Virus record (IMG/VR): IMGVR_UViG_3300027721_000033
Coordinates: 1-39,658 of that record
Source of the DNA: a virus
Reading direction: 5' to 3' (one strand)
DNA length: 39,658 nucleotides
The stretch's first letter is position 1, and every line of letters begins with the position of its first letter. Positions 7,408 to 18,832 of this stretch are shown here, piece by piece. Below the pieces are notes generated by a model that searched no databases, was not told the origin of the DNA, and worked only from the letters and a program-made list of their open reading frames with translations. A program made the position numbers and the translations under genes.

Positions 7408-9138
7408 ATGTCTGACTCAGTCCCCAACGTTGATGCGATGTCGGCCTTTGATAGGGCCGCGTCGCATCCGAACCCGGCGTTCGACTTCCTCACGGGATTC
7501 GTTCCCCGCAAGCTCAAAGATCTCTTCAAATGGTGCGAATATTTACTCTACAACAGCGCGCACGTCTACGCGGCGCTTCGGAAGTTTGGTGAGCTGGTCG
7601 TCACCGACATTGAGTACAGCACCTCGAATGAAGCGCTCCGTCGTAACTACCGACGGCTCTTTGAGAAGACGCTAAAGATCAAAGGTGCGCTGTTGATGGC
7701 GTCTCTCGACAAGCACGTCTATGGGAACCATTTCACTTCCATCTACAAGCCCTTCGTGCGCAGCCTCAAGTGCCCTGGGTGTCAGCAGCTTACGTCGATC
7801 AATCACGTCGACTACAAGTTCGACCTGAAGAAGCTGTCGTTCACGTACTACTGTCTCAAGTGCCGCAAGCACGTCCAGGGTGCGGTTGTTGACCGAAAGA
7901 TCCTGGCGGCCAGTAAGGTCCACATCATCCGCTGGGACCCGAAGCTGATGGACATCGACTACAACCCGATCACGGGGCAGTCGGTGTACTACTACAACAT
8001 CCCGCAGGACATCAAAGACCAGGTGAAGTCGGGGTCGAAGCATCTCATCAACTCCATGCCGATGGAGTTCCTCGAGAACATCCGCGACAACAAGACGTTC
8101 CGCTTTGAGAAGGACGCCCTCTTCCACATCAAGGTCGCGAGCCCGTCGGGCATCGACCAGCAGTGGGGCTTCCCTCCTCTCGCCTCGACCATCAAGCTGT
8201 TCCTCTACACCTTGGTGCTCCGCAAGGCGAACGAGGCCATCGCGCTCGAGCACGTTGTGCCTATGCGCATCCTGCACCCGGCTCAGAACGGCCAGCAGGA
8301 CTTCACGCAGATGATTTCTCTCGCCCGCTGGCAGGACGAGATGAAGCAGAACATCCGGCGTTGGCGCCGCGATCCGCTGCACATCATGATGGCGCCTGTT
8401 GCCTTGGGCGTCTCCAACCTGGGCGGCGACGGCCGTGCGATGCTCACCATCGGCGAGCTCCAAGAGGCTGAGAAGAGCATCATGGCGGCGCTCGGCATTC
8501 CGCAGGAGTTCCTGTACGGCGGCCTCACCAAGGCGGGCATGGAAGCCACGCTTCGCCTGATTCAGAACCAGACGCAGGGTCACGCAGATGACATGAACGA
8601 CCTGCTCCAGTGGTACTCCGATCAGATGGCTCGGTTCCTGGGCTGGGAGAAGATCGAAGCGAAGCTCACTCCGCTGAAGATGGTGGACGACACCGAGTCC
8701 AAGCAGATGCTCATCAACATGGCGACGGGGCAGACGGGGCAGCAGTTCGTTTCCATGACGACCGTCTGTGAGCGGCTCGACATCGACCTCGATGAAGAGC
8801 GCGAGAAGCGGCTTCAGGAAACGCTGGACGAAGCCCGCCACCAGCAACGCGTACAGCGCGAGGTACAGGCGCTCCAGAACAACCTGGCGCAGCAGGTCCA
8901 GCAGCAGGCGCAGGCATCGACGGGGCTCAACTACGACCAGCAGGCGGTCATCGCGCAGGCCGACCAGCTCGTGCAGCAGCTCATGGGGCTGGACCCCGGG
9001 TCACGTCGGTCACAGATGCATAGCCTCCAGGCCGAAGACGCGGTCATGTATGCGGTCGTGGTCCAGCGGCTCGAGGATATGCAGAACCAACAGGGCGCTC
9101 AAGCGAAGGCTCAGGCGGGCGCTCAGCCCCCGATGTAA
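7408..9138 (+). CDS. Portal protein with zinc-ribbon insert
   Basis: 576 aa. Forms the dodecameric gate at the capsid vertex through which DNA is packaged and ejected. Portal features: a conserved clip/stem/wing-type core, the late GIPQEFLYGG segment and the helical region rich in Asn/Gln after it, and a Gln-rich C-terminal tail (about 475-576) typical of portal crown regions. The unusual part is a CPGC...CLKC zinc knuckle (C122, C125, C149, C152) inside the N-terminal half. The start has GAGGA about 9 nt upstream and follows a candidate phage promoter. It is the first gene of the rightward morphogenesis region. Family assignment is by pattern; the length fits portals. Confidence 0.75.
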   Translation: MSDSVPNVDAMSAFDRAASHPNPAFDFLTGFVPRKLKDLFKWCEYLLYNSAHVYAALRKFGELVVTDIEYSTSNEALRRNYRRLFEKTLKIKGALLMASLDKHVYGNHFTSIYKPFVRSLKCPGCQQLTSINHVDYKFDLKKLSFTYYCLKCRKHVQGAVVDRKILAASKVHIIRWDPKLMDIDYNPITGQSVYYYNIPQDIKDQVKSGSKHLINSMPMEFLENIRDNKTFRFEKDALFHIKVASPSGIDQQWGFPPLASTIKLFLYTLVLRKANEAIALEHVVPMRILHPAQNGQQDFTQMISLARWQDEMKQNIRRWRRDPLHIMMAPVALGVSNLGGDGRAMLTIGELQEAEKSIMAALGIPQEFLYGGLTKAGMEATLRLIQNQTQGHADDMNDLLQWYSDQMARFLGWEKIEAKLTPLKMVDDTESKQMLINMATGQTGQQFVSMTTVCERLDIDLDEEREKRLQETLDEARHQQRVQREVQALQNNLAQQVQQQAQASTGLNYDQQAVIAQADQLVQQLMGLDPGSRRSQMHSLQAEDAVMYAVVVQRLEDMQNQQGAQAKAQAGAQPPM

Positions 9139-9147
9139 GGAGAGCAC

Positions 9148-9648
9148 ATGCCATTGAAGCAAGAAGCTGGATCTGATTTTGCGTCCATCTTGAACTCCGC
9201 CGGGCGGGTGCCTGAGGCATTCGAGAGCAATGGTAAGGATCTGCCTGATGGTTTTCCTTTCCAGAAGGATCCTACCCACCGGATGGTGGACTCCGAGCAG
9301 GAGGGCATCCCCGGCGTTGCCGCGTTCGACTTCAAGATTCACCGCAAGGTCTTCACCATCTTCCGTCCCTGGGGCGATTGCGCCCGCTGTGGACAGGACA
9401 TCGCTTCCGGTGCGTCAAGCATCCCCGCCACAGGGGACTACGAGTGCCCGCACGTGAGCCTGGAAGATTACGAAGCCACGGTGAACGACATCCTCGCCGG
9501 AAAGCTTCTGTTCGGGTCGGAGCAGGAGATCACGCAGAAGGACGGAAGCGTCCTCGTCTCCCTGCGTTGGTACGAAAAAATTCCGTCGAAGAAAAAGAAA
9601 GCTCCGCAGCCGGGCGTTGATGGCACCGTTCCGGAACCGTCTATCTGA
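9148..9648 (+). CDS. Unknown portal-linked protein with CxxC pair
   Basis: 166 aa. Begins 9 nt after the portal stop with AAGGAGA before the ATG, so it is co-transcribed with the portal. It has a central knuckle (CARCGQ) and a later CPH that could supply zinc ligands, a block of aromatic residues around FRPWGDC, and a Lys/Pro-rich C-terminus. No family is recognised. Position after the portal suggests a head-assembly or connector accessory, which is inference. Confidence 0.65.
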   Translation: MPLKQEAGSDFASILNSAGRVPEAFESNGKDLPDGFPFQKDPTHRMVDSEQEGIPGVAAFDFKIHRKVFTIFRPWGDCARCGQDIASGASSIPATGDYECPHVSLEDYEATVNDILAGKLLFGSEQEITQKDGSVLVSLRWYEKIPSKKKKAPQPGVDGTVPEPSI

Positions 9649-9753
9649 GTCTTCCGCGCCCGAACTCCCCCGCGGGAAATAATCCCCGCGGGAGAGCCGA
9701 TCTGGCTTAACGCCCGAACCGAACGAGCGAAATCCAGATCACGTAACGGATGT
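9649..9753. terminator. Paired hairpins between converging genes
   Basis: The gap between the portal-linked gene and the leftward Cys-rich gene holds two stems. The first (9665-9694) pairs CTCCC with GGGAG and GCGGG (9672-9676) with CCCGC (9685-9689), with a 2-nt bulge and loop AAATAATC. The second pairs GATCTGG (9699-9705) with CCAGATC (9734-9740) across a 28-nt loop. No T-run follows either. They are well placed to stop converging transcripts, probably with factor help. Confidence 0.55.
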
Positions 9754-10536
9754 TCAAGCAGGTGTCTCAGGCGCTTTCTCGAGCGCGGTCAAAGGTTGAA
9801 GGCTACCCTCTGGGATGATCACGGCCCCCTGCCGCGGTCCCTGGTGCCCCTTCTTGCGGTTCCTCTTGAACTTGCCACCGGGCCCGTCCTGAGGAACAGC
9901 GATGAGTTCCGACACGGGCGCACGCAACGGCGCATTGGGGCGGACCTTCGCCCGCATGTGTTTCAAGTGGCACCGATCACATTGCCTCTTTCGCGCGTGC
10001 GCTCCGAACTTCAGTACGCTCTGTGCGATCAGTCCCGCGTTAACAACGACAGGGCCTTCTCCGCAGTGGCATACGATTTGGTAGACCGGCGCCACTGGAA
10101 GCAGCTCGCCGGTTTCCACTTGACTGAGAATTTGCTTCAGCTTCTCAGGATGACTCCACCCCGGGATGTACTCGTACGGGCGCTTGCGAAGAACCATCAA
10201 GCACTCGCACAACTTGTAGTCGCTGCTGAAATGAAACATCCGCTCCTTGGAGAGCGGTTCCTGCGGCTTGTTGCAGAAGTGGCAACGCGCCTTGGTGTTG
10301 GTCAGCGTGGCTGCGATGCGGGCGATCCTCGGCAACTGGTTCGCCACCATCCCCTCGCTCATCGCATCCCACCGTTTTCGGTCGTCAACTTCACAGACGA
10401 GCGAAGCGCGGAGGATTTTGTCCGGTGGAATCTCTCGGACGTCGATGAGGAACGATGCCTCCTCCTTGTGGATCGGAGGCGCCGCTCGTTTTACGACCTT
10501 CTTTTTCTTCGTCTTCCCCGCTACTTTGTTGGCCAT
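9754..10536 (-). CDS. Cys-rich protein divergent from RNAP gene
   Basis: 260 aa. Basic N-terminus (KTKKKKVVKR), then several Cys pairs: CHFC, CEC, CHCGEG and CDRCHLKH, enough for two zinc sites. The C-terminal ~60 residues are basic and Gly/Pro-rich. The gene is the only leftward one in the morphogenesis block and shares an 84-bp control region with the RNAP gene. GAGGGGA precedes the ATG. A zinc-dependent nucleic-acid-binding or regulatory role is plausible from composition and position, but no family is recognised. Confidence 0.65.
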   Translation of the reverse strand: MANKVAGKTKKKKVVKRAAPPIHKEEASFLIDVREIPPDKILRASLVCEVDDRKRWDAMSEGMVANQLPRIARIAATLTNTKARCHFCNKPQEPLSKERMFHFSSDYKLCECLMVLRKRPYEYIPGWSHPEKLKQILSQVETGELLPVAPVYQIVCHCGEGPVVVNAGLIAQSVLKFGAHARKRQCDRCHLKHMRAKVRPNAPLRAPVSELIAVPQDGPGGKFKRNRKKGHQGPRQGAVIIPEGSLQPLTALEKAPETPA

Positions 10537-10620
10537 TTGTTCCCCTCGCGTGGTACTGCGTCAAAGCCCCGTCAGTGGGGCTCAACTACTAATACCAATT
10601 TCAGGGCTATACTTACGGAC
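10537..10620. promoter_or_regulatory. Control region of the RNAP gene
   Basis: CTATACTT at 10607-10614 matches the recurring phage motif. With TATACT (10608-10613) as -10 box, transcription would begin at about 10620-10621, on or next to the ATG at 10621. A 6-bp hairpin, AGCCCC (10565-10570) and GGGGCT (10577-10582), lies in the middle and could act as operator or leader structure. For the leftward gene, TTGACG is present on the minus strand near 10559-10564 but its -10 partner is unclear. Confidence 0.5.
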
Positions 10621-13600
10621 ATGCAGCTCACGCCTGTGATGACCGACCCCGAGTCGCGGCGGATTCAAATCCGCTCGAAAGCGCTTGATGCGCTGCGTAC
10701 AGCTTTTCCCCTTCCACTTCGGGACAAGAAAATCGAGGTCGTTGATCTCAAGGTGCACGAGAGGGACTTCGGTCCGCACGATCAGAAGAGCGCTTTGCTC
10801 AGCGGTGGGTCTCTTTTTGAGCCTGTGAAGGGGACGGTCATCCTCCGGGGGGCCGACGGGAAGGAGCTCGAGCGGGTAAAGAACTTCACTCTGCTTAACC
10901 TGCCCTACTTCACGGGGCGGCACACCTTCATCTTGGACGGCAACGAGTACAACGTCTCTAACCAACTCCGTCTGAAGCCGGGCGTATACACCCGTCGCCG
11001 CGGCAACGAAGATCTGGAGGCCGCCTTCAACTTGTCGAAGGGGTCCAACTTCCGGCTGTCGATGGATCCGACGCAGGGGCATCCGTACATCGAGTACGGC
11101 ACGACGTCCATTCCACTTTACTCAGTACTCCGGAAGCTGGGAGTACCACACACGGACATTTCTTCGCACTGGGGCTCCGACGTTGCGAAGCAGAATGAGT
11201 CTGCGTTTGAAGGGAAGCACGACAAGAATCTGTCGAAGCTCTACGAGAAGCTGGTGCACCCTTCGAAGCGGATGGCAAAGGACCCGGAGTCGCAGCTCGC
11301 TGCCATCAGGACAGCCTACGCCGCTACGGCGATGGACCCTGAGGTTACCAAGGAGACACTGGGCCACGAGTTCTCCAGCGTCACTCCGCAGTCTCTCTTG
11401 GTGGCGTCGAAGCGCCTCCTCAGCGTCTACAAGAACAACGAGGACACTGACGACCGAGACGCTCTACGGTTCAAGACGTACCACTCGGTCGACGACTTCA
11501 TCAAAGAGCGCATCACCCTGGATGCTCGGGCGCTCGCCAGTAAGGTGAAGGGGAGGGCCACGCACAAGACGGAACTCCGGACCATTCTTCCGCCTTCTCC
11601 TTTTTCCGCGGGCATTCGAAGCTTCCTCACAGGATCGCAGCTGAGCTCGATCCCAACGCACATCAACCCGATGGAGGCCATTGACCACGCGGTGCGGGTG
11701 ACCTCCTTGGGCGAGGGTGGCATCGCCAACGAGCGTGCAATCCCTGGCGAGGCTCGGGCGATTCACTCGAGCCACCTTGGTATCCTTGATCCTGTGCGAA
11801 CGTCCGAGACGTTCCGCGCCGGTATCGACATCCGTACTTCGATGTTCGCGCACCGGGACCCCAAGGGGAACCTGTACTCCATGGTGCGGGACGTCAAGAC
11901 CGGTAAGTCGGAGCTTCTGTCCGCAGCGCGGATGAGTCGGGCAGTCGTCGCCTTCCCGAGGCAGAAGCACTTTGGGGTCGTCGCGGTCATGAAGTACGGG
12001 AAGATGGAGCGCGTTCCATGGTCGGAGGTTACGCACGAGATCAGTGATGCTTCAGACTTGTACTCTCCCGCCACGAACCTCGTTCCCTTTTTGGAGTCCG
12101 TGCAGGGGAACCGCGGCATCATGGGAGGCAAGTCGATGACGCAGGCGCTCCCGCTCGTGCACCGAGAAGCACCCCTAGTGCAGTCGGGTGTCGCTGATGC
12201 GACGGGCAAGGTCTTCTCGAGTTGGGAGAAGGCACTCGCGATGCTGGAGCTCCCGTCGTCTCCCGTCGCAGGCAAGGTTGTGAAGGTCGACGGGCAGTAC
12301 ATCTACATCGACCCTACTGGGAAGAAGCACGCAGAAGACTTTGGGATTGAGAAGAATTCGTTCGAGAAGCGTGGCGGCGCCGTCAAACGACAGAAGACCA
12401 TCAACGGCCTGCTCATGAAGATCGAGCTCGAGCCTGGTGATGTACGCACGGGGACGAACGACAAGGGCGAAAAGTGGGAGAAGAAGATGTACGTGGCGTA
12501 CGGCCACATCCCCAAGACCGTTGGCGATGATGGCGAAACCGTCGACATCTACCTGAAGGAAGAGGGCACGTTCGACAACGTCTACATCGTGCATCAGCGG
12601 AAGAAGGACGGCTCGCACGACGAAGACAAGTGCATGGTGGGCTTCGACTCCAAGGACGCCGCGAAGGACGCCTACGAGAAGCACGGTCCACCCTGGGGCT
12701 ACGGTTCGTTGACCGAGTACACCTGGGACGAGTTCAAGGACGACTACCTCTCAGAGCGCGGTCGAGAGAAGGCGGCGGCGGAGAAGGACCTCCTCCGCAT
12801 CCCGTACGAGGACAACTTCCCCTTCGCTTCGAAGACATACCTTCACCACGACCTACTCGTGAAGCCTGGCGACCACGTTGACGCGAACCAGCGCCTAGCT
12901 GATTCGAACTTCACTCGTGACGGTGCCTTTGCTCTGGGGCGGAACATGACCATCGGGTACGTGCCCTACTACGGCATGAACTCGAACGACGCCGTCGTCA
13001 TCTCGGAAGGGGCCGCGGACAAGCTCACCTCCGAGCACATGTACAAGGAGGTCCTCGAGGTTGAGCGCGATGCAACTCTGGGGCGCGAGATTCATCGGCA
13101 GTACTACGGGCCCAAGTACATGGCGGACCAGTATCGCAAGCTCGACACCAACGGCGTAGTTCGCAAGGGCACGAAGGTGATGCCTCACGACCTGCTCATC
13201 GCGGGCGTGACGCGTGGAAAACTCTCCGCGTCCGACATGCTTTTGTCGAATCTGAAGAAGACACTGGTTCACCCCTATCGCGAGCTCGTTCGGACCTGGG
13301 ACCATGACTTCGAGGGTGAGGTCATGGACGTCCACGTGACCGACAGGCGCGTCGTCGTCACTGTCAGGACCAAGGAACCGATGCGCGTCGGGGACAAGCT
13401 CACGGGGCGTCACGGGAATAAGGGCGTCGTGTCCCTGATCGTACCGAACCACAAGATGCTCCAGGACGAAGCGGGGAAGCCGCTCGACGTTCTCTATACC
13501 TCGGCGGGCGTCGTCTCTCGTATCAACCCCGCGCAGATCCTTGAGACCTGCGTCGCCAAGGTCGCTAAGAAGATGGGGAAGCCCATCGCCGTTGCCAACT

Positions 13601-15432
13601 TCTCCGGTCGCGACAACGTACAGTGGACCAAGGACCTGATGAAGGAGCACGGAGTCAAGGACAAGGAGACGTTGTTCGACCCGGTGTCGGGGAAGAAGAT
13701 TCCCAACATCCTCGTCGGACCGCAGTACGTGCTGCGCTTGTTCAAGACGACAGAGACCAACTTCGCTGCTCGTGGGACCGGGGCCTACGACGTCAACCAG
13801 CAGCCCATCAAAGGCGGGGACGAAGGCGCCAAGGCCGTCGGCAAGATGGAGTTCAACGCGCTGGTGGCGCATAACGCTCGCAACGTGTTGAAAGAGACAG
13901 CGTCGATCAAGAGCCAGAAGAATGATGAGTTCTGGAAGGCCGTACAGCTGGGCTTGCCTCTCCCGCCTTTGAAGGCGTCGTTCGCCTACGACAAGTTCAT
14001 TGGCATGCTTCACGGCGCTGGGGTGAAGGTGGACACTCGAGGAAGCCTCAGCACGCTCATGCCGCTGACGGACAACGACATCACGCGAATGTCCGCCGGC
14101 GCCGTGCAGAATGAGAAACTGGTCCGTGCGAAGGACCTGGCTCCGGAACGCGGGGGCTTGTTCGACCCCGCTGTTACCGGTGGTCCCGACGGGACGCGGT
14201 GGAGCCACATTGAGCTCGCGGAGCCGATGGTGAATCCCATTTTCGCTGAACCAGCTCGTCGTCTGCTTGGTATGGCATCAAAGGACTTTGATGCTTACCG
14301 ATTCCAGTCAGGAGGGTCAGCGCTGAAGCAGCGTCTCAACGGGATCGACGTAAAGGCCCGCTTGAAAGAGGTTCGGGCGTCCATCAAGAGTCTGAACGGG
14401 GTGAAGCTCGATGACGCCGTGAAGCAGCTCAAGTTCCTCGAGGCCCTCGACAAGCAGAACCTCCGACCTGGTGATGCCTACGTGTTGTCGAAGATGCCTG
14501 TTCTCCCGCCCATCATGCGGCCCATACTCGCGGGGAAGAGTGGTTCAGAGCTCGTGGTCGGAGACTCCAACTACCTCTATCAGAGCCTCATGCTGCACAA
14601 TCGGTCCCTCCAGACACAGGTCGACAAGCCGGTGCTCCCGCCTGATGAGCATTCCAAGTTGCGCCAGAACTTGTTCCTCGCCGTCGGTGCTGCGGTCGGC
14701 ACGCACGAGTCCGACAACCCCAAGCTCCAGAAGCGAAATGTGAAGGGCCTGCTCGAGCACCTCACCGGCAAGACGACGCCCAAGAGCAGCTTTTTCCAGA
14801 AAAAGATCATGAAGCGTCAGCAGGACATCTCTGGCCGCGGAACCATCGCCCCCGACGGTTCGCTGGGCATGGACGAAATCGGTCTCCCCGAAGACATGCT
14901 CTGGGGCATGTACGGGAAGTTCATCATCGGGCGCTTGATCCGTCGAGGCTTCAACGCTGTTCGCGCCAAGGAGATGCTGGACGAGAAGCACCCGGCAGCT
15001 CGAGACGCCATGATGGCGGAGCTCAAAGAACGTCCAGTGATGGTGAACCGCGCGCCGACGCTCCACCGTTACGGCTTCGTCGGAGCCAACCCTGTCCCCG
15101 TCGCAGGCAAAACCATCCGTGTGAATCCGTTCATCGAACAGGGCATGAACGCGGACTACGACGGTGACACGTTCCAGATCCACGTCCCTATTCTTCCCGC
15201 CGCCGTCGCGGAGGTGAAGGGAATGACCCTCTCCAACCTGCTCTTTTCGGACCGCGAGCAAAACAGCCTGATGGTCGCTCCCCGCATGGAAGCTATGCTA
15301 GGCGTGCACCTGGCTACGAAAGCCGAAGGGTCCGTAAACGGGCAGACGCACAAGTTCAAAACCAAAGCCGATGCCATGGCCGCGTACAAGCGCGGCGAAA
15401 TCGGGCTGCATACCAAAGTTGAGGTGGGCTGA
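10621..15432 (+). CDS. RNA polymerase beta fused to N-terminal half of beta-prime, with inserted pyrophosphatase-like domain
   Basis: 1603 aa from ATG 10621; the frame stays open upstream to 9796, but that part is antisense to the Cys-rich gene. Beta landmarks: REAPLVQSG near 513-521, LGRNMTIGYVPYYGMNSNDA near 776-795, and GDKLTGRHGNKG (924-935) followed by GVVSRINPAQILET. Beta ends near 1165 and beta-prime begins: ERGGLFDP, WSHIELAEP, PVLPPIMRP, NRAPTLHRYGF, then the catalytic NADYDGD (1510-1516) whose three aspartates hold Mg2+. The product stops at a point matching about residue 550 of E. coli beta-prime; the rest is the gene at 17033. The N-terminal beta-prime zinc site (four Cys in E. 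coli) is absent: FDP runs almost directly into the HIEL segment. Residues about 595-700 form an insert with YGHIPKTVGDDGETVDIYL and DEDKCMVGFDS, resembling phage inorganic-pyrophosphatase domains. Role: phage transcription. Confidence 0.93.
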   Translation: MQLTPVMTDPESRRIQIRSKALDALRTAFPLPLRDKKIEVVDLKVHERDFGPHDQKSALLSGGSLFEPVKGTVILRGADGKELERVKNFTLLNLPYFTGRHTFILDGNEYNVSNQLRLKPGVYTRRRGNEDLEAAFNLSKGSNFRLSMDPTQGHPYIEYGTTSIPLYSVLRKLGVPHTDISSHWGSDVAKQNESAFEGKHDKNLSKLYEKLVHPSKRMAKDPESQLAAIRTAYAATAMDPEVTKETLGHEFSSVTPQSLLVASKRLLSVYKNNEDTDDRDALRFKTYHSVDDFIKERITLDARALASKVKGRATHKTELRTILPPSPFSAGIRSFLTGSQLSSIPTHINPMEAIDHAVRVTSLGEGGIANERAIPGEARAIHSSHLGILDPVRTSETFRAGIDIRTSMFAHRDPKGNLYSMVRDVKTGKSELLSAARMSRAVVAFPRQKHFGVVAVMKYGKMERVPWSEVTHEISDASDLYSPATNLVPFLESVQGNRGIMGGKSMTQALPLVHREAPLVQSGVADATGKVFSSWEKALAMLELPSSPVAGKVVKVDGQYIYIDPTGKKHAEDFGIEKNSFEKRGGAVKRQKTINGLLMKIELEPGDVRTGTNDKGEKWEKKMYVAYGHIPKTVGDDGETVDIYLKEEGTFDNVYIVHQRKKDGSHDEDKCMVGFDSKDAAKDAYEKHGPPWGYGSLTEYTWDEFKDDYLSERGREKAAAEKDLLRIPYEDNFPFASKTYLHHDLLVKPGDHVDANQRLADSNFTRDGAFALGRNMTIGYVPYYGMNSNDAVVISEGAADKLTSEHMYKEVLEVERDATLGREIHRQYYGPKYMADQYRKLDTNGVVRKGTKVMPHDLLIAGVTRGKLSASDMLLSNLKKTLVHPYRELVRTWDHDFEGEVMDVHVTDRRVVVTVRTKEPMRVGDKLTGRHGNKGVVSLIVPNHKMLQDEAGKPLDVLYTSAGVVSRINPAQILETCVAKVAKKMGKPIAVANFSGRDNVQWTKDLMKEHGVKDKETLFDPVSGKKIPNILVGPQYVLRLFKTTETNFAARGTGAYDVNQQPIKGGDEGAKAVGKMEFNALVAHNARNVLKETASIKSQKNDEFWKAVQLGLPLPPLKASFAYDKFIGMLHGAGVKVDTRGSLSTLMPLTDNDITRMSAGAVQNEKLVRAKDLAPERGGLFDPAVTGGPDGTRWSHIELAEPMVNPIFAEPARRLLGMASKDFDAYRFQSGGSALKQRLNGIDVKARLKEVRASIKSLNGVKLDDAVKQLKFLEALDKQNLRPGDAYVLSKMPVLPPIMRPILAGKSGSELVVGDSNYLYQSLMLHNRSLQTQVDKPVLPPDEHSKLRQNLFLAVGAAVGTHESDNPKLQKRNVKGLLEHLTGKTTPKSSFFQKKIMKRQQDISGRGTIAPDGSLGMDEIGLPEDMLWGMYGKFIIGRLIRRGFNAVRAKEMLDEKHPAARDAMMAELKERPVMVNRAPTLHRYGFVGANPVPVAGKTIRVNPFIEQGMNADYDGDTFQIHVPILPAAVAEVKGMTLSNLLFSDREQNSLMVAPRMEAMLGVHLATKAEGSVNGQTHKFKTKADAMAAYKRGEIGLHTKVEVG

Positions 15433-16040
15433 TGTCTCGTTACAAGATCGCAGTTGACGGCATCGAGGTGCCTCCAGAGCAGGTGCAGTCCCCTGACGCC
15501 CAAGCCACCGAAGCCGCTGGCGCTGTTGTTCCTCTCCCCCAGCCAACCGCTTCGGAGGGCGTTCACCCGCTGGCGGTGTCTCCCGAGGAGGGGCTGTTCG
15601 CAGTTCCTCAGGAGAAGGTCGTCGGCCAGTGCGTGAAGCTGCTCAAGCTCAAGTACACGATGATGATGATGTACATCAACTACGGTGACCGGATCCGGGC
15701 GCACTTCCGGGATGTCATCTACGACCACTTCAAAGAGCACGCCGACGAAGAGCGTCAGGACGCCTACCACCTGACGATGAAGATCACGGCGTTGGGCGGT
15801 GAGCCCACTCCGAAGGTGAGCACCATCCCCGACATCAACGACTTGCACCAGATGTTCATGGTCCTGCTCCAGGCGGAGAAGCAGATCATCCAGGAGCTGC
15901 GAAACCTCTCCCTCATGGCGGGGGAGAATCTGTCGCTCAAGGTCATGCTCGAACAGATGGTCTTCACCGACCAGCAGCATGCAGACGATCTGCGTCGCAT
16001 GATGTTCTGCGAAGGAGGCGGCGGTGGAGCAATTCCTTAA
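15432..16040 (+). CDS. Ferritin-like four-helix protein
   Basis: 202 aa. The first ~65 residues are a low-complexity Pro/Ala/Gln linker. The rest is helical and carries the ferritin-like pattern HFKEHADEERQDAYHL, then LGGEP, then a second helix pair with QAEKQIIQELRNLS and FTDQQHADDLRRM; the E/H residues could bind a di-metal centre as in bacterioferritin or Dps-type folds. The start ATG overlaps the RNAP stop (ATGA), so it is translationally coupled to the polymerase. Whether it stores iron, acts as a peroxidase or only uses the fold structurally is unknown. Finding it between two RNAP pieces is unusual. Confidence 0.7.
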   Translation: MSRYKIAVDGIEVPPEQVQSPDAQATEAAGAVVPLPQPTASEGVHPLAVSPEEGLFAVPQEKVVGQCVKLLKLKYTMMMMYINYGDRIRAHFRDVIYDHFKEHADEERQDAYHLTMKITALGGEPTPKVSTIPDINDLHQMFMVLLQAEKQIIQELRNLSLMAGENLSLKVMLEQMVFTDQQHADDLRRMMFCEGGGGGAIP

Positions 16041-16200
16041 GCAGGCGTTCGAAGAAGGACAGCAGCTGGCCGCGGAAGAACTTGCGCAGAAGTTGAAGGA
16101 CGCTGTGAAACGACGCGAGGCGCTGGTGGGCTGGAAAGAGCAGTCGAAGGCCCCTGCTCGGTTGTCCAACGCTGCCAAGTCACCTACGCTCCCACGATGA
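16024..16200 (+). CDS. 58-residue protein, GTG start
   Basis: A very strong AGGAGG (16013-16018) lies 5 nt before GTG 16024, and the frame runs to TGA at 16198-16200. The product opens with EQFLKQAFEEGQQLAAEELA and is helical and charged, with a basic C-terminus. It overlaps the ferritin-like gene by 17 nt and the next gene by ATGA. The opening motif (Ala-Phe-Glu-Glu-Gly) resembles the openings of the next two small proteins. No function is recognised. Confidence 0.7.
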   Translation: MEQFLKQAFEEGQQLAAEELAQKLKDAVKRREALVGWKEQSKAPARLSNAAKSPTLPR

Positions 16201-16487
16201 TGAATCTCGCCTACGAGGAAGGGAAGGCCCGTGCGGAAGAGGACTTCGGTCTTCGTACCGCAGGTGATGCCTTTCAACGCGCTCTTCCTCACGGCGACAT
16301 GAACGTGTCGGCGGAGCGTCTCGCTAAGACCCTTTCGAATCTGGACAGCCAGGTCGTCCCGTCGAAGGATGAGGGACACAAGCGGTTCGGCAACCCAACG
16401 CGCTGGGGCAACCCGACGTCTCCTTGGGGCGTCGGCGCTTCTTCGCACGATTACTCCGGCATTGGCCGCGATGGAGCCGCAATATGA
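16197..16487 (+). CDS. Small unknown protein with AYEEG opening
   Basis: 96 aa (or 95 from the second ATG). It opens with MMNLAYEEGKARAEEDFGL, then a charged middle and a Gly/Pro/Trp-rich tail (RFGNPTRWGNPTSPWGVG) that looks unstructured. Start and stop both overlap neighbours by ATGA. The opening shares the A-x-x-E-G pattern with the genes on either side, so the three may carry a common docking or localisation helix. No family is recognised. Confidence 0.65.
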   Translation: MMNLAYEEGKARAEEDFGLRTAGDAFQRALPHGDMNVSAERLAKTLSNLDSQVVPSKDEGHKRFGNPTRWGNPTSPWGVGASSHDYSGIGRDGAAI

Positions 16488-17026
16488 TCAAGGAAGCTGC
16501 GTACAATGAGGGGTATCGCGCTGCGTGGGGTGTCTTCTTCAAAGGGGCAGCGCCAATGCCCACGCAGGTGTTCCGCGGTCCGCGGGTCGCAGCCCAGACG
16601 AACTCTGCGCCGGTTATGGGCGCCGCCGCTCCGGTCAAGGGGCCGTCGAACTCCGCCGCTCCCGGTCCCATGCTTCCGCAGCAGGTGGGTCCCGGCGTGA
16701 CTAAGAAGCCGCAGCCTACGGCGCCTGTCGCTGCTCCCGCTGCTGGCGCCGGTGCTCCTGCTGCTGGCGCTCCTGCTGCTGGCGCTCCTGCTGCTGGTGG
16801 AAAGCCCGCTGGCGCTCCTGCTGCTGGCGCTCCTGCTGCTGGTGGAAAGCCCGCTGGCTTCTTCCAGAACTTCATGGGGGGTGTGAAGGGCGAAGAAGGG
16901 AAAACGTTCGGCCACTCATTGGGGCAGGCGGCGATGCAGCAGGCGCCGATGCTCGCCATGTCGGCAGGTCTCCCCCTGATGATGAATGCCTTCTCCAGTT
17001 CTGGCAACCAGAACAATCAGTACTGA
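16484..17026 (+). CDS. Small protein with Ala/Gly/Pro repeat linker
   Basis: 180 aa from the ATG that overlaps the preceding stop; an in-frame start at 16424 would lie within the previous gene and is rejected. It opens with MIKEAAYNEGYRAAWGVFF, followed by ~90 residues of Ala/Pro/Gly with GAPAA units and two GGKPA breaks, then a C-terminal helix-forming part (KTFGHSLGQAAMQQAPMLAM) with a short hydrophobic end (AGLPLMMNAF). Probably a virion or assembly factor with a flexible linker. The repeat is a 45-bp duplication (separate entry). Confidence 0.65.
   Translation: MIKEAAYNEGYRAAWGVFFKGAAPMPTQVFRGPRVAAQTNSAPVMGAAAPVKGPSNSAAPGPMLPQQVGPGVTKKPQPTAPVAAPAAGAGAPAAGAPAAGAPAAGGKPAGAPAAGAPAAGGKPAGFFQNFMGGVKGEEGKTFGHSLGQAAMQQAPMLAMSAGLPLMMNAFSSSGNQNNQY
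16745..16858 (+). repeat. 45-bp in-gene duplication built from 15-bp GAPAA units
   Basis: Units of the type GGCGCTCCTGCTGCT (15 bp, Gly-Ala-Pro-Ala-Ala) recur, and a 45-bp block beginning at 16770 is repeated at 16815. The two blocks look identical over their shared length. The repeat encodes the flexible linker of the gene at 16484 and can expand or contract in frame. Confidence 0.85.
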
Positions 17027-17032
17027 GGCTCC

Positions 17033-18832
17033 ATGGCGCAGACGCTTGGGAAATACCTGGTCAACGACCTGCTGCCCAAGCATCTCCACACGACGGGGGC
17101 GCTGGGGAAGAAAGAGCTCACGCAGAAGCTGCTGGACCTCGCTCGAGAGGACCCTTCTGCCTACGTTGAGATCGTCAGCAGCCTGAAGCGTCTCGGGGAT
17201 GACATCTCCACGCTCGAAGGGGTCTCCGTCGGCATCGATGACATCACGCCGCAGTACAAAGAGCGTAATGCGCTCATCACGGCGACGACCGCGGCTCTGA
17301 AAAGTGCCACTACTTCAGCGGCAAAGGAGAAGGTTCTTCTCGACGCAAAAGTGAAGATGCTGGCGCAGACCAAGCTGCACCCAGGCACGATGACCGCGAT
17401 GGCGATGTCAGGAGCTCGCGGCAACATGGAGCAGCTGGCCAAGACCGTATCCTCTCCGGTCACAGTGACGTCTAGCCAAGGGCGGGCGATGCCCTGGATA
17501 GTTGACCGCTCCTATTCAGAGGGGCTCCACTCCGCGGACTACTGGGCCGCTGGAAACGATGTGCGGCACAACACCGTGCAGGCGGCCATCTCTATCTCTG
17601 AGCCTGGCGACATGCTCAAGATCATGACAAACTCGATGTATCCAATGGTCGTTACCGCCGACGACTGTGGAACACCGAACGGTATAGCGCTCGCCAGCAC
17701 TGATGGGAACATCATTGATAGGTACCTCTCCAGAGATCAGGCGGGTTACCGCCGGAACGACTTGGTGACGAAGGCAGTTGCGTCGGGCCTCCGCAACAAA
17801 GTGAAGACGGTCTATGTCCGCTCGCCGATGACGTGTAAGGCCACGCCAGGCCTCTGCCGCAAGTGTCAAGGTCTTGATGAGCGAGGACGTCCGCACGCAA
17901 TCGGCATCAATGTCGGTGTCCGTGCCGCGCAGTCGATCTCTGAGCCTTTGACCCAGATGGCGTTGAGCGCCAAGCACGGCGGGAAGAGCATCAAGGGGTC
18001 TTCTTCTCAGCTCACTGGAATGCCGGGGGTTCGGCAGCTTCTCGAGGTGCCGCAGAACTTCATCAATAAGGCGGCGCTGGCAGAGCGTACCGGGGTCGTT
18101 ACGAAGATCGTACCCGCGCCCCATGGCGGTACGCATATCTACGTCAATGAGGTACAGCACTACGTTGGGCCGAATTTGAAGCCGCTTGTGCGTGTCCATC
18201 AGAAAGTGGAAGCTGGTGATGTACTCTCAGAAGGAATCCCCAAACCAGATGAGCTCATCCACCACAAAGGTTTTGGCGTTGGACGACAGTACCTCGTGGA
18301 CGCACTTCATGACATCTATGGGCGGGAAGGCGTCAACGTCGACAAGCGGCACTTTGAATTGGTCGCCCGCGCAGACCTCAACCACGTCAAAGTTCTCGAG
18401 CACACAGATGAGCATCCGGAGCTCCTCAAAGGAGAAGTAGTCCCCTACGAGGCGTATCGGAACGCCGCGGAGAAGGGCAGTCGGGATACGCTACTCGCTC
18501 ACGCCGTGGGCGGCGTACTGGGTAAAGAGGTCCTCCACTACACCGCGGGTACGCCTCTTACTCCTTCGATCCTCAACACCCTCAAGACCCACGGGGTCAC
18601 CAGTGTTGGTGTGGCCTCTTCACTTCCGCGCGTCGAGTTCATGATGCGGCCGATGGCGCGAAACCCGCTGCTCCACCCGGACTGGATGGCCCGTCTGGCT
18701 CATCGCTTCTTGAAGGACAGTCTTCTTCAGGGAGCTCGTACCGGCGCAGTGTCAGATCGCCATAGCACTCACCCGGTACCGGCCTACGCTTACGGTTCTG
18801 AATTCGGGATGGGACCGGAAGGCAAATACTAA
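17033..18832 (+). CDS. RNA polymerase beta-prime, C-terminal half
   Basis: 599 aa. It picks up where the fusion protein stops. Landmarks: VSVGIDDIT near 64-72 (E. coli ASVGIDDM), SGARGN near the F-loop, a diverged bridge-helix region around 150-195, and the second beta-prime zinc site C212 (DDCGT), C268, C275, C278 (CKATPGLCRKC). The trigger-loop start SEPLTQMALSAKHGG keeps E304, P305, T307, Q308 and H315 (the active-site His) but is one residue shorter than the E. coli loop and lacks the Met-Arg pair next to it. GRQYLVDALHDIYGREGVNVDKRHFELVAR fragments match the C-terminal clamp (near E. coli [26 protein letters not shown]). It should complete the catalytic core with the beta/beta-prime-N fusion. 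The stop overlaps the next ATG (TAATG). Confidence 0.92.
   Translation: MAQTLGKYLVNDLLPKHLHTTGALGKKELTQKLLDLAREDPSAYVEIVSSLKRLGDDISTLEGVSVGIDDITPQYKERNALITATTAALKSATTSAAKEKVLLDAKVKMLAQTKLHPGTMTAMAMSGARGNMEQLAKTVSSPVTVTSSQGRAMPWIVDRSYSEGLHSADYWAAGNDVRHNTVQAAISISEPGDMLKIMTNSMYPMVVTADDCGTPNGIALASTDGNIIDRYLSRDQAGYRRNDLVTKAVASGLRNKVKTVYVRSPMTCKATPGLCRKCQGLDERGRPHAIGINVGVRAAQSISEPLTQMALSAKHGGKSIKGSSSQLTGMPGVRQLLEVPQNFINKAALAERTGVVTKIVPAPHGGTHIYVNEVQHYVGPNLKPLVRVHQKVEAGDVLSEGIPKPDELIHHKGFGVGRQYLVDALHDIYGREGVNVDKRHFELVARADLNHVKVLEHTDEHPELLKGEVVPYEAYRNAAEKGSRDTLLAHAVGGVLGKEVLHYTAGTPLTPSILNTLKTHGVTSVGVASSLPRVEFMMRPMARNPLLHPDWMARLAHRFLKDSLLQGARTGAVSDRHSTHPVPAYAYGSEFGMGPEGKY

Follow-up and report, generated by a model that had tools for sequence, protein, structure and literature searches.

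The main finding of this study is that a stretch of viral DNA (39,658 bases, the whole of the record analysed, hereafter the window) encodes a bacterial-type multisubunit RNA polymerase (RNAP) in two chains. Chain A carries a near-complete beta subunit that runs directly into the N-terminal part of beta-prime, while chain B, the product of a separate downstream gene, supplies the C-terminal part; within its beta portion chain A also holds a putative inorganic pyrophosphatase (InPase) domain. The same two-chain layout occurs in cultured phages. Salmonella phage Arash (OQ632216), whose complete genome measures 180.8 kb, and the Vibrio phages D69, D148 and D181 have a chain A that is ~36% identical—in Arash it is gp206, with 36.5% identity over 91%, and gp216 is chain B—and a separate downstream chain B gene is seen in Arash, D69 and D181. 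Taken by itself, the polymerase belongs to an already known kind. We did not find described, in the open-access texts searched, a beta/beta-prime-N chain paired with a beta-prime-C from a gene of its own, the sister form in which the two subunits are fused throughout, or a pyrophosphatase lodged in a beta slot of variable content. As a whole, we read the system as a two-chain, alpha-less, sigma-directed, virion-injected early RNAP with a PPi-clearing InPase, a reading towards which the evidence leans with reasonable, if far from complete, assurance. The features of the window that bear on it are as follows.

1261-2094, + strand: sigma70-family factor, regions 2 and 4 (Sigma70_r2 7.5e-9, Sigma70_r4 2.4e-9; PHROG 351)
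7408-9138, + strand: portal protein homologue (30% identity to Arash gp204 portal, 3.4e-85), upstream of the chain A gene
10621-15432, + strand: RNAP chain A, beta plus N-terminal part of beta-prime, 1603 aa (Pfam, E. coli mapping, AlphaFold2)
10621-14040, + strand: beta portion of chain A, E. coli beta ~25-1340, with the putative InPase inside
12310-12786, + strand: beta insertion slot with predicted InPase domain PF18823, between E. coli ~731 and ~739 (Pfam-matched 12382-12741)
14056-15429, + strand: beta-prime N-terminal portion, reaching E. coli residue 551
15148-15168, + strand: catalytic Mg-binding motif NADYDGD (motif in the translation; Asp conservation in the family)
15432-17026, + strand: genes between chains A and B, namely a ferritin-like ORF (15432-16040) and short ORFs without assigned function
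17033-18832, + strand: RNAP chain B, C-terminal part of beta-prime, 599 aa, E. coli ~570 onward (Pfam, model)

The architecture of chain A is clear from the translation of the window, in which the frame is uninterrupted for its full length up to a TGA stop at 15430-15432; it is open upstream as far as 9796 (TTG), and homologues begin at about the ATG at 10621. Pfam matches follow one another in the order Rpb2_3, Rpb2_6 (7e-51), Rpb1_1 and Rpb1_2 (5e-18), and alignment to E. coli runs through beta from ~25 to 1340 and then through beta-prime from ~8-34 to 551, across an almost linker-free join. Chain B matches Rpb1_5 (2.6e-20) and, weakly, Rpb1_4, and contains the bridge helix, the trigger-loop helices and the Cys4 site. 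At the junction between the chains nothing is duplicated or lost relative to E. coli except a loop of ~20 residues present in the latter. An initial annotation of this DNA had described beta fused to the front half of beta-prime, a break at about residue 550 and a separate gene for the back half, and had proposed a profile search as a check; that search and the alignment bear out each point, and the motif positions it gave in the protein (GRHGNKG at 929-935, NADYDGD at 1510-1516) are exact. The beta portion is too short for insertions of the E. coli SI1 and SI2 type, and the N-terminal zinc-binding region of beta-prime (E. coli ~65-103) is absent from chain A, while no zinc-site-like cysteine cluster was seen in those fused-form sequences that were checked. 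Directly after chain A, the ORF at 15432-16040 encodes a ferritin-like domain (PF00210, 9e-11), its ATG overlapping the chain A stop.

Conservation and modelling are both in keeping with a working core. The three Asp residues of DxDGD are kept in 89/89, 89/89 and 88/89 aligned family members. All 89 also have both active-site lysines of beta and, in beta-prime, the arginine equivalent to E. coli R425; most have the Cys4 site in beta-prime-C and a His in the trigger loop. With each chain modelled alone, AlphaFold2 gave a pLDDT of 87 for residues 404-1603 of chain A and of 88 for chain B; the chain B model shows trigger helices and a bridge helix of 36 residues. The beta part of the chain A model aligns with bacterial beta (Z 36.1, 531 residues), and the chain B model aligns from end to end with beta-prime (Z 34.8, 528 residues). 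The VIA-align matches listed for the chain A model are beta chains that extend over roughly the first 741 residues of the model; the assignment of the beta-prime-N part, like that of the InPase part, rests on sequence together with model confidence. The two halves, well modelled separately, together cover the core, in keeping with the prediction of the initial annotation that one complete beta and a beta-prime split at one point would fit as a core enzyme. The window itself being a fragment, gene content was assessed in 15 related records: all 15 have one RNAP copy per genome by PF00562, with no second copy, and none has a match to alpha (PF01000) in a search whose positive controls were matched. 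In the mechanism that we propose, chain A would bring the DxDGD active site and the InPase, chain B would bring the bridge helix and trigger loop, and the two would come together at the loop that follows the catalytic barrel of beta-prime, giving one ordinary RNAP core.

The pyrophosphatase domain and the beta slot

The match of chain A to PF18823 spans ~120 aa and is far above the curated cut-off (8.9e-32; 110.2 bits vs 26.8). The domain is confidently modelled by AlphaFold2, and its profile matches, in the PDB, a phage portal with the same domain (9b41) as well as soluble inorganic pyrophosphatases. D667 and K670 are invariant in 11 inserts, and YG..P and D637/E639/D642 are conserved as well. 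Pyrophosphatase activity is nevertheless not assured, because the DxDxxD signature reads D637-G-E639-T-V-D642, with Glu in place of the middle Asp. An active domain would hydrolyse the pyrophosphate (PPi) released by each nucleotide addition, favouring RNA synthesis, and a self-clearing RNAP of this kind could serve in vitro RNA synthesis, to which pyrophosphatase is added separately. If the domain is active, we know of no other natural multisubunit RNA polymerase with a built-in PPi sink, and the open-access full texts searched (figures and supplements aside) describe no RNAP-pyrophosphatase fusion in phages. InPase domains do occur in phage polyvalent proteins that are likely packaged, where it has been proposed that they might clear PPi and thereby aid early replication or transcription (PMC5512222); a pyrophosphatase built into the polymerase makes that proposal testable.

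The slot itself is variable. It measures 4-40 residues in most relatives, and no long insert was seen in it in the fused set. InPase occupies it in the clade of the window as well as in L008, L010 (a weak match), L023 and L052, whereas L022 has a GNAT domain there, L031-L033 a domain without a Pfam match, and L009 an extra ParB-like stretch (by eye). Since the slot lacks an InPase in most family members, the domain appears dispensable for transcription as such. Its presence requires at least four changes on the tree presented below, and the L016 insert shares 30% identity with that of the window, against ~65% for the remainder of the protein, which suggests domain replacement. PF18823 was found as a single copy in 8/19 records searched, four times in the RNAP and four times in other proteins. 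The beta of Arash and of D69 has no embedded InPase. Compensation by a standalone pyrophosphatase in Arash was considered and set aside: gp23 is so annotated and is in the virion according to the text of the Arash report, yet the record has no PF18823 or PF00719 match.

How the InPase is to be understood depends on how this pattern is weighed. It could be cargo, the beta loop being the carrier slot of a packaged "polyvalent" protein that delivers enzyme domains to the host, and the mixed slot contents, the repeated changes on the tree, the divergent L016 insert, the relatives with InPase in other proteins and the precedent of such domains in packaged phage proteins (PMC5512222) all speak for this, against which stand the facts that InPase is the commonest identified occupant and that its substrate is the polymerase's own by-product. 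We regard cargo as a credible but doubtful explanation; it concerns the InPase alone and leaves the other parts of the main explanation standing. A related and tentative proposal, to which we would give a little less than an even chance, is that polymerase beta has an interchangeable domain slot in a packaged RNAP, with an active pyrophosphatase serving as PPi sink in the window's clade and other enzyme domains in relatives.

Insertions are also found elsewhere in these chains. In L083, chain A (within 7908-13445) has a 378-aa beta insertion at P0001-equivalent 220 with a weak match to 2H phosphoesterase (PF22547, 1.3e-4), and in the relatives L109 and L110 the matching region is shorter. Intein-like insertions of ~350-510 aa, at P0001-equivalent 396, 927, 1388 and 1516 and inside highly conserved RNAP motifs, occur in L014, L015, L016, L034, L041, L042, L058, L071, L075 and L079, with three of them in the single 2842-aa frame of L015.

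Sigma factor, virion and proposed delivery

The second part of our reading concerns when and how the enzyme acts. The sigma factor encoded in the window is the probable promoter-recognition partner of the RNAP, and Sigma70_r2 was found in 13/15 related records as well as in the window. The window and Arash both have one small gene between the portal gene and the downstream RNAP gene, and a portal homologue is likewise present at this position in D69. The evidence from virions concerns Arash, a relative without the embedded InPase, whose particles were purified on a sucrose gradient; as given in the text of that report, gp206 was detected with 3516 spectra, the most of any virion protein, and 100% coverage, and gp216 with 1210 spectra, and the virions also contain the sigma factor gp10 and the helicase gp217, encoded beside chain B (PMC10585845). 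Because both Arash chains are among the most-detected virion proteins, the RNAP of the window is, by analogy, probably a virion RNAP that is injected with the genome. It would be packaged in the virion, enter the cell together with the DNA and transcribe early genes independently of host RNAP, probably directed by the sigma factor. Where E. coli beta has Q513, D516 and S531, the chain A of the window has S343, T346 and T361, which predicts an enzyme resistant to rifampicin.

The Arash authors themselves point out that purified particles may contain abundant enzymes by carry-over (PMC10585845), and an RNAP made during infection for middle or late genes, like the phiKZ nvRNAP, could reach the particles in this way; with one RNAP per genome in the related records, any stage of infection could be served. 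However, in the text of the same report gp206 spectra exceed those of the major capsid protein, the sigma factor and helicase are detected alongside, and the RNAP gene adjoins the portal gene, so that we consider a middle or late enzyme present by carry-over unlikely. For the injected early RNAP that we favour, the existence of a cultured member makes virion-RNAP biology directly testable in a near-cellular enzyme.

Relatives and the likely order of fusion and split

The layout of the window is widespread. An alignment-based IMG/VR scan gave at least 367 stretches that encode it, the 80 best of which were retained, and both chains of the window recur with 100% identity in a 187,070-base contig (L007). 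The two-gene form is present at 61 loci examined, with chain B downstream on the same strand, 537-5874 bases away; at 11 loci examined chain B is absent or partial in the DNA stretch analysed; and at 17 loci examined beta and beta-prime lie in a single frame of 1800-2159 aa. A scan seeded with the fused form gave 80 loci, partly overlapping the earlier set, 69 of them with a single frame of at least 1950 aa. A large sister phage set thus encodes beta and beta-prime as one unbroken chain of ~2050 aa. Although frameshift, misassembly or decay can leave a subunit divided between two genes, and the initial annotation had raised a frameshift or assembly error between the two genes, such an origin is so improbable here that it can be dismissed, since the split is common to these 61 loci including the 187-kb contig and complete genomes of cultured isolates, hundreds to thousands of bases separate the frames, and the catalytic residues are conserved across the 89 family members.

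Some individual loci deserve mention. In L148, L151 and L159, three loci of the fused set, stops at other positions, beta included, divide the frame into two to five pieces, for which stop-codon recoding, decay or sequencing error are possible. In Vibrio phage D181 (L003, 7525-8474), and in D148 by its annotation, a homing-endonuclease gene that is absent in D69 interrupts the chain A gene, the interruption probably being an intron. Three records deposited as phages (OR844998, CAKLQH020000005 and AFYI01000006) carry ordinary bacterial rpoB/rpoC, which is likely host contamination.

The order of events was approached with a tree of concatenated beta and beta-prime (quick LG+G4 search, rooted with three bacterial sequences, and built from phage and bacterial sequences without archaea, eukaryotes or mReC sequences), in which several rows deviate in amino-acid composition and a long outgroup branch makes the root soft. 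In this tree, of the kind that the initial annotation had proposed as a check, the phage RNAPs separate from the three bacterial outgroups, with support 100. A branch with an SH-aLRT of 95 sets the split members apart on one side, the fused set adjoins the root without clade support, and the fused/split character changes once. The beta to beta-prime join is common to the phage members, and beta-prime is unbroken in the bacterial outgroups. The simplest history on these sequences would be a single fusion, after which the clade of the window acquired a single split at the 551/570 loop.

In phiKZ-type RNAPs, virion and non-virion alike, beta-prime is split behind the catalytic barrel, at a point that coincides with the cyanobacterial split (PMC7598289). 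The break described here lies in that neighbourhood, which does not imply identity of site: a structure alignment places chain B residues 15-17 opposite residues 1-6 of cyanobacterial rpoC2 chains, and cyanobacterial gamma runs ~69 residues beyond the position of the chain A end. These nearby but unequal positions do not decide for or against inheritance of the break from cyanobacteria; that the sister phage set has an unbroken beta-prime argues for a split within phages. A homing endonuclease or intein as the cause of the split was considered and rejected, there being no general sign of one among loci whose genes between the chains vary; a LAGLIDADG-like ORF lies there only in L042 among the loci looked at by eye. 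The genes between the chains include, also by eye, LigD-type end-joining ligase-like genes in L023 (13552-14922), L028 (12357-13943), L039 (13935-15839) and L072 (12286-12813).

Comparison with known systems

The closest known systems are Arash and the three Vibrio phages, which share the composition of chain A with the window; Arash also has the portal gene upstream of the RNAP gene and encodes sigma factors. In these phages the chains are annotated as "beta" and "beta-prime" or as hypothetical, and the fusion is unmentioned in the text of the Arash report (PMC10585845). The initial annotation had held that the arrangement matched neither of the known types; this is not supported, given a break near the phiKZ-type and cyanobacterial site (PMC7598289) and cultured phages of the same layout already in GenBank, and a phage group with the same fusion and break, when looked for, was found in Arash, D69 and D181.

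The mReC phages are metagenomic tailed phages whose RNAP was found with COG0085/COG0086 (Weinheimer and Aylward 2020, PMC7481178). Like them, the window has the marks of a tailed phage, a portal homologue, and an RNAP recognisable by cellular beta/beta-prime profiles (here Pfam). As far as the main text goes, mReC RNAPs form a clade apart from cells, and it makes no mention of a fusion or beta-prime break; for the lineage of the window, the separation seen is from three bacterial outgroups. IMG/VR is a common source of both analyses, and one mReC source metagenome, 3300017989, recurs in the fused locus L176. Judging from that text, the lineage of the window probably lies within or next to the mReC phages. 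The proposal of a distinct phage RNAP lineage therefore stands as regards separation from the bacterial outgroups used, but not as regards novelty, in view of the probable overlap with these published phages (PMC7481178).

Like the phiKZ-type virion RNAP, the enzyme described here is multisubunit, comes without an alpha encoded in the related records and has beta-prime divided behind the catalytic barrel; the phiKZ-type enzyme is packaged and injected, as ours would be (PMC7598289). In phiKZ-type phages, however, beta is also split (five or four pieces in all), no sigma is recognisable and the sequences are far more diverged (PMC7598289), whereas a single frame encodes beta in the window and in the aligned loci of both the split and the fused form, and sigma is recognisable in the window and most of the related records. 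Thermus phage P23-45 likewise has a two-barrel virion RNAP fused to an extra protein, with proposed delivery at infection, but its similarity to cellular RNAPs is very low and its partner is the tape measure protein, with no inserted enzyme domain (PMC10770324). A fusion of beta with beta-prime-N in phages is not described in the open-access full texts searched (figures and supplements aside).

Unlike phiKZ or crAss RNAPs, the enzyme of the window is conserved enough for alignment with cellular RNAP. Fused rpoB-rpoC genes are known in bacteria such as Helicobacter and Wolbachia, in which the beta C-terminus is joined to the beta-prime N-terminus, as in the window; in those bacteria beta-prime is unbroken, as it is in the sister phage set (17 loci), whereas the clade of the window has it in two pieces. 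From separate subunits in cells, by way of one fused chain, to a chain fused and then split runs a natural series, in which an RNAP without an encoded alpha has been repackaged.
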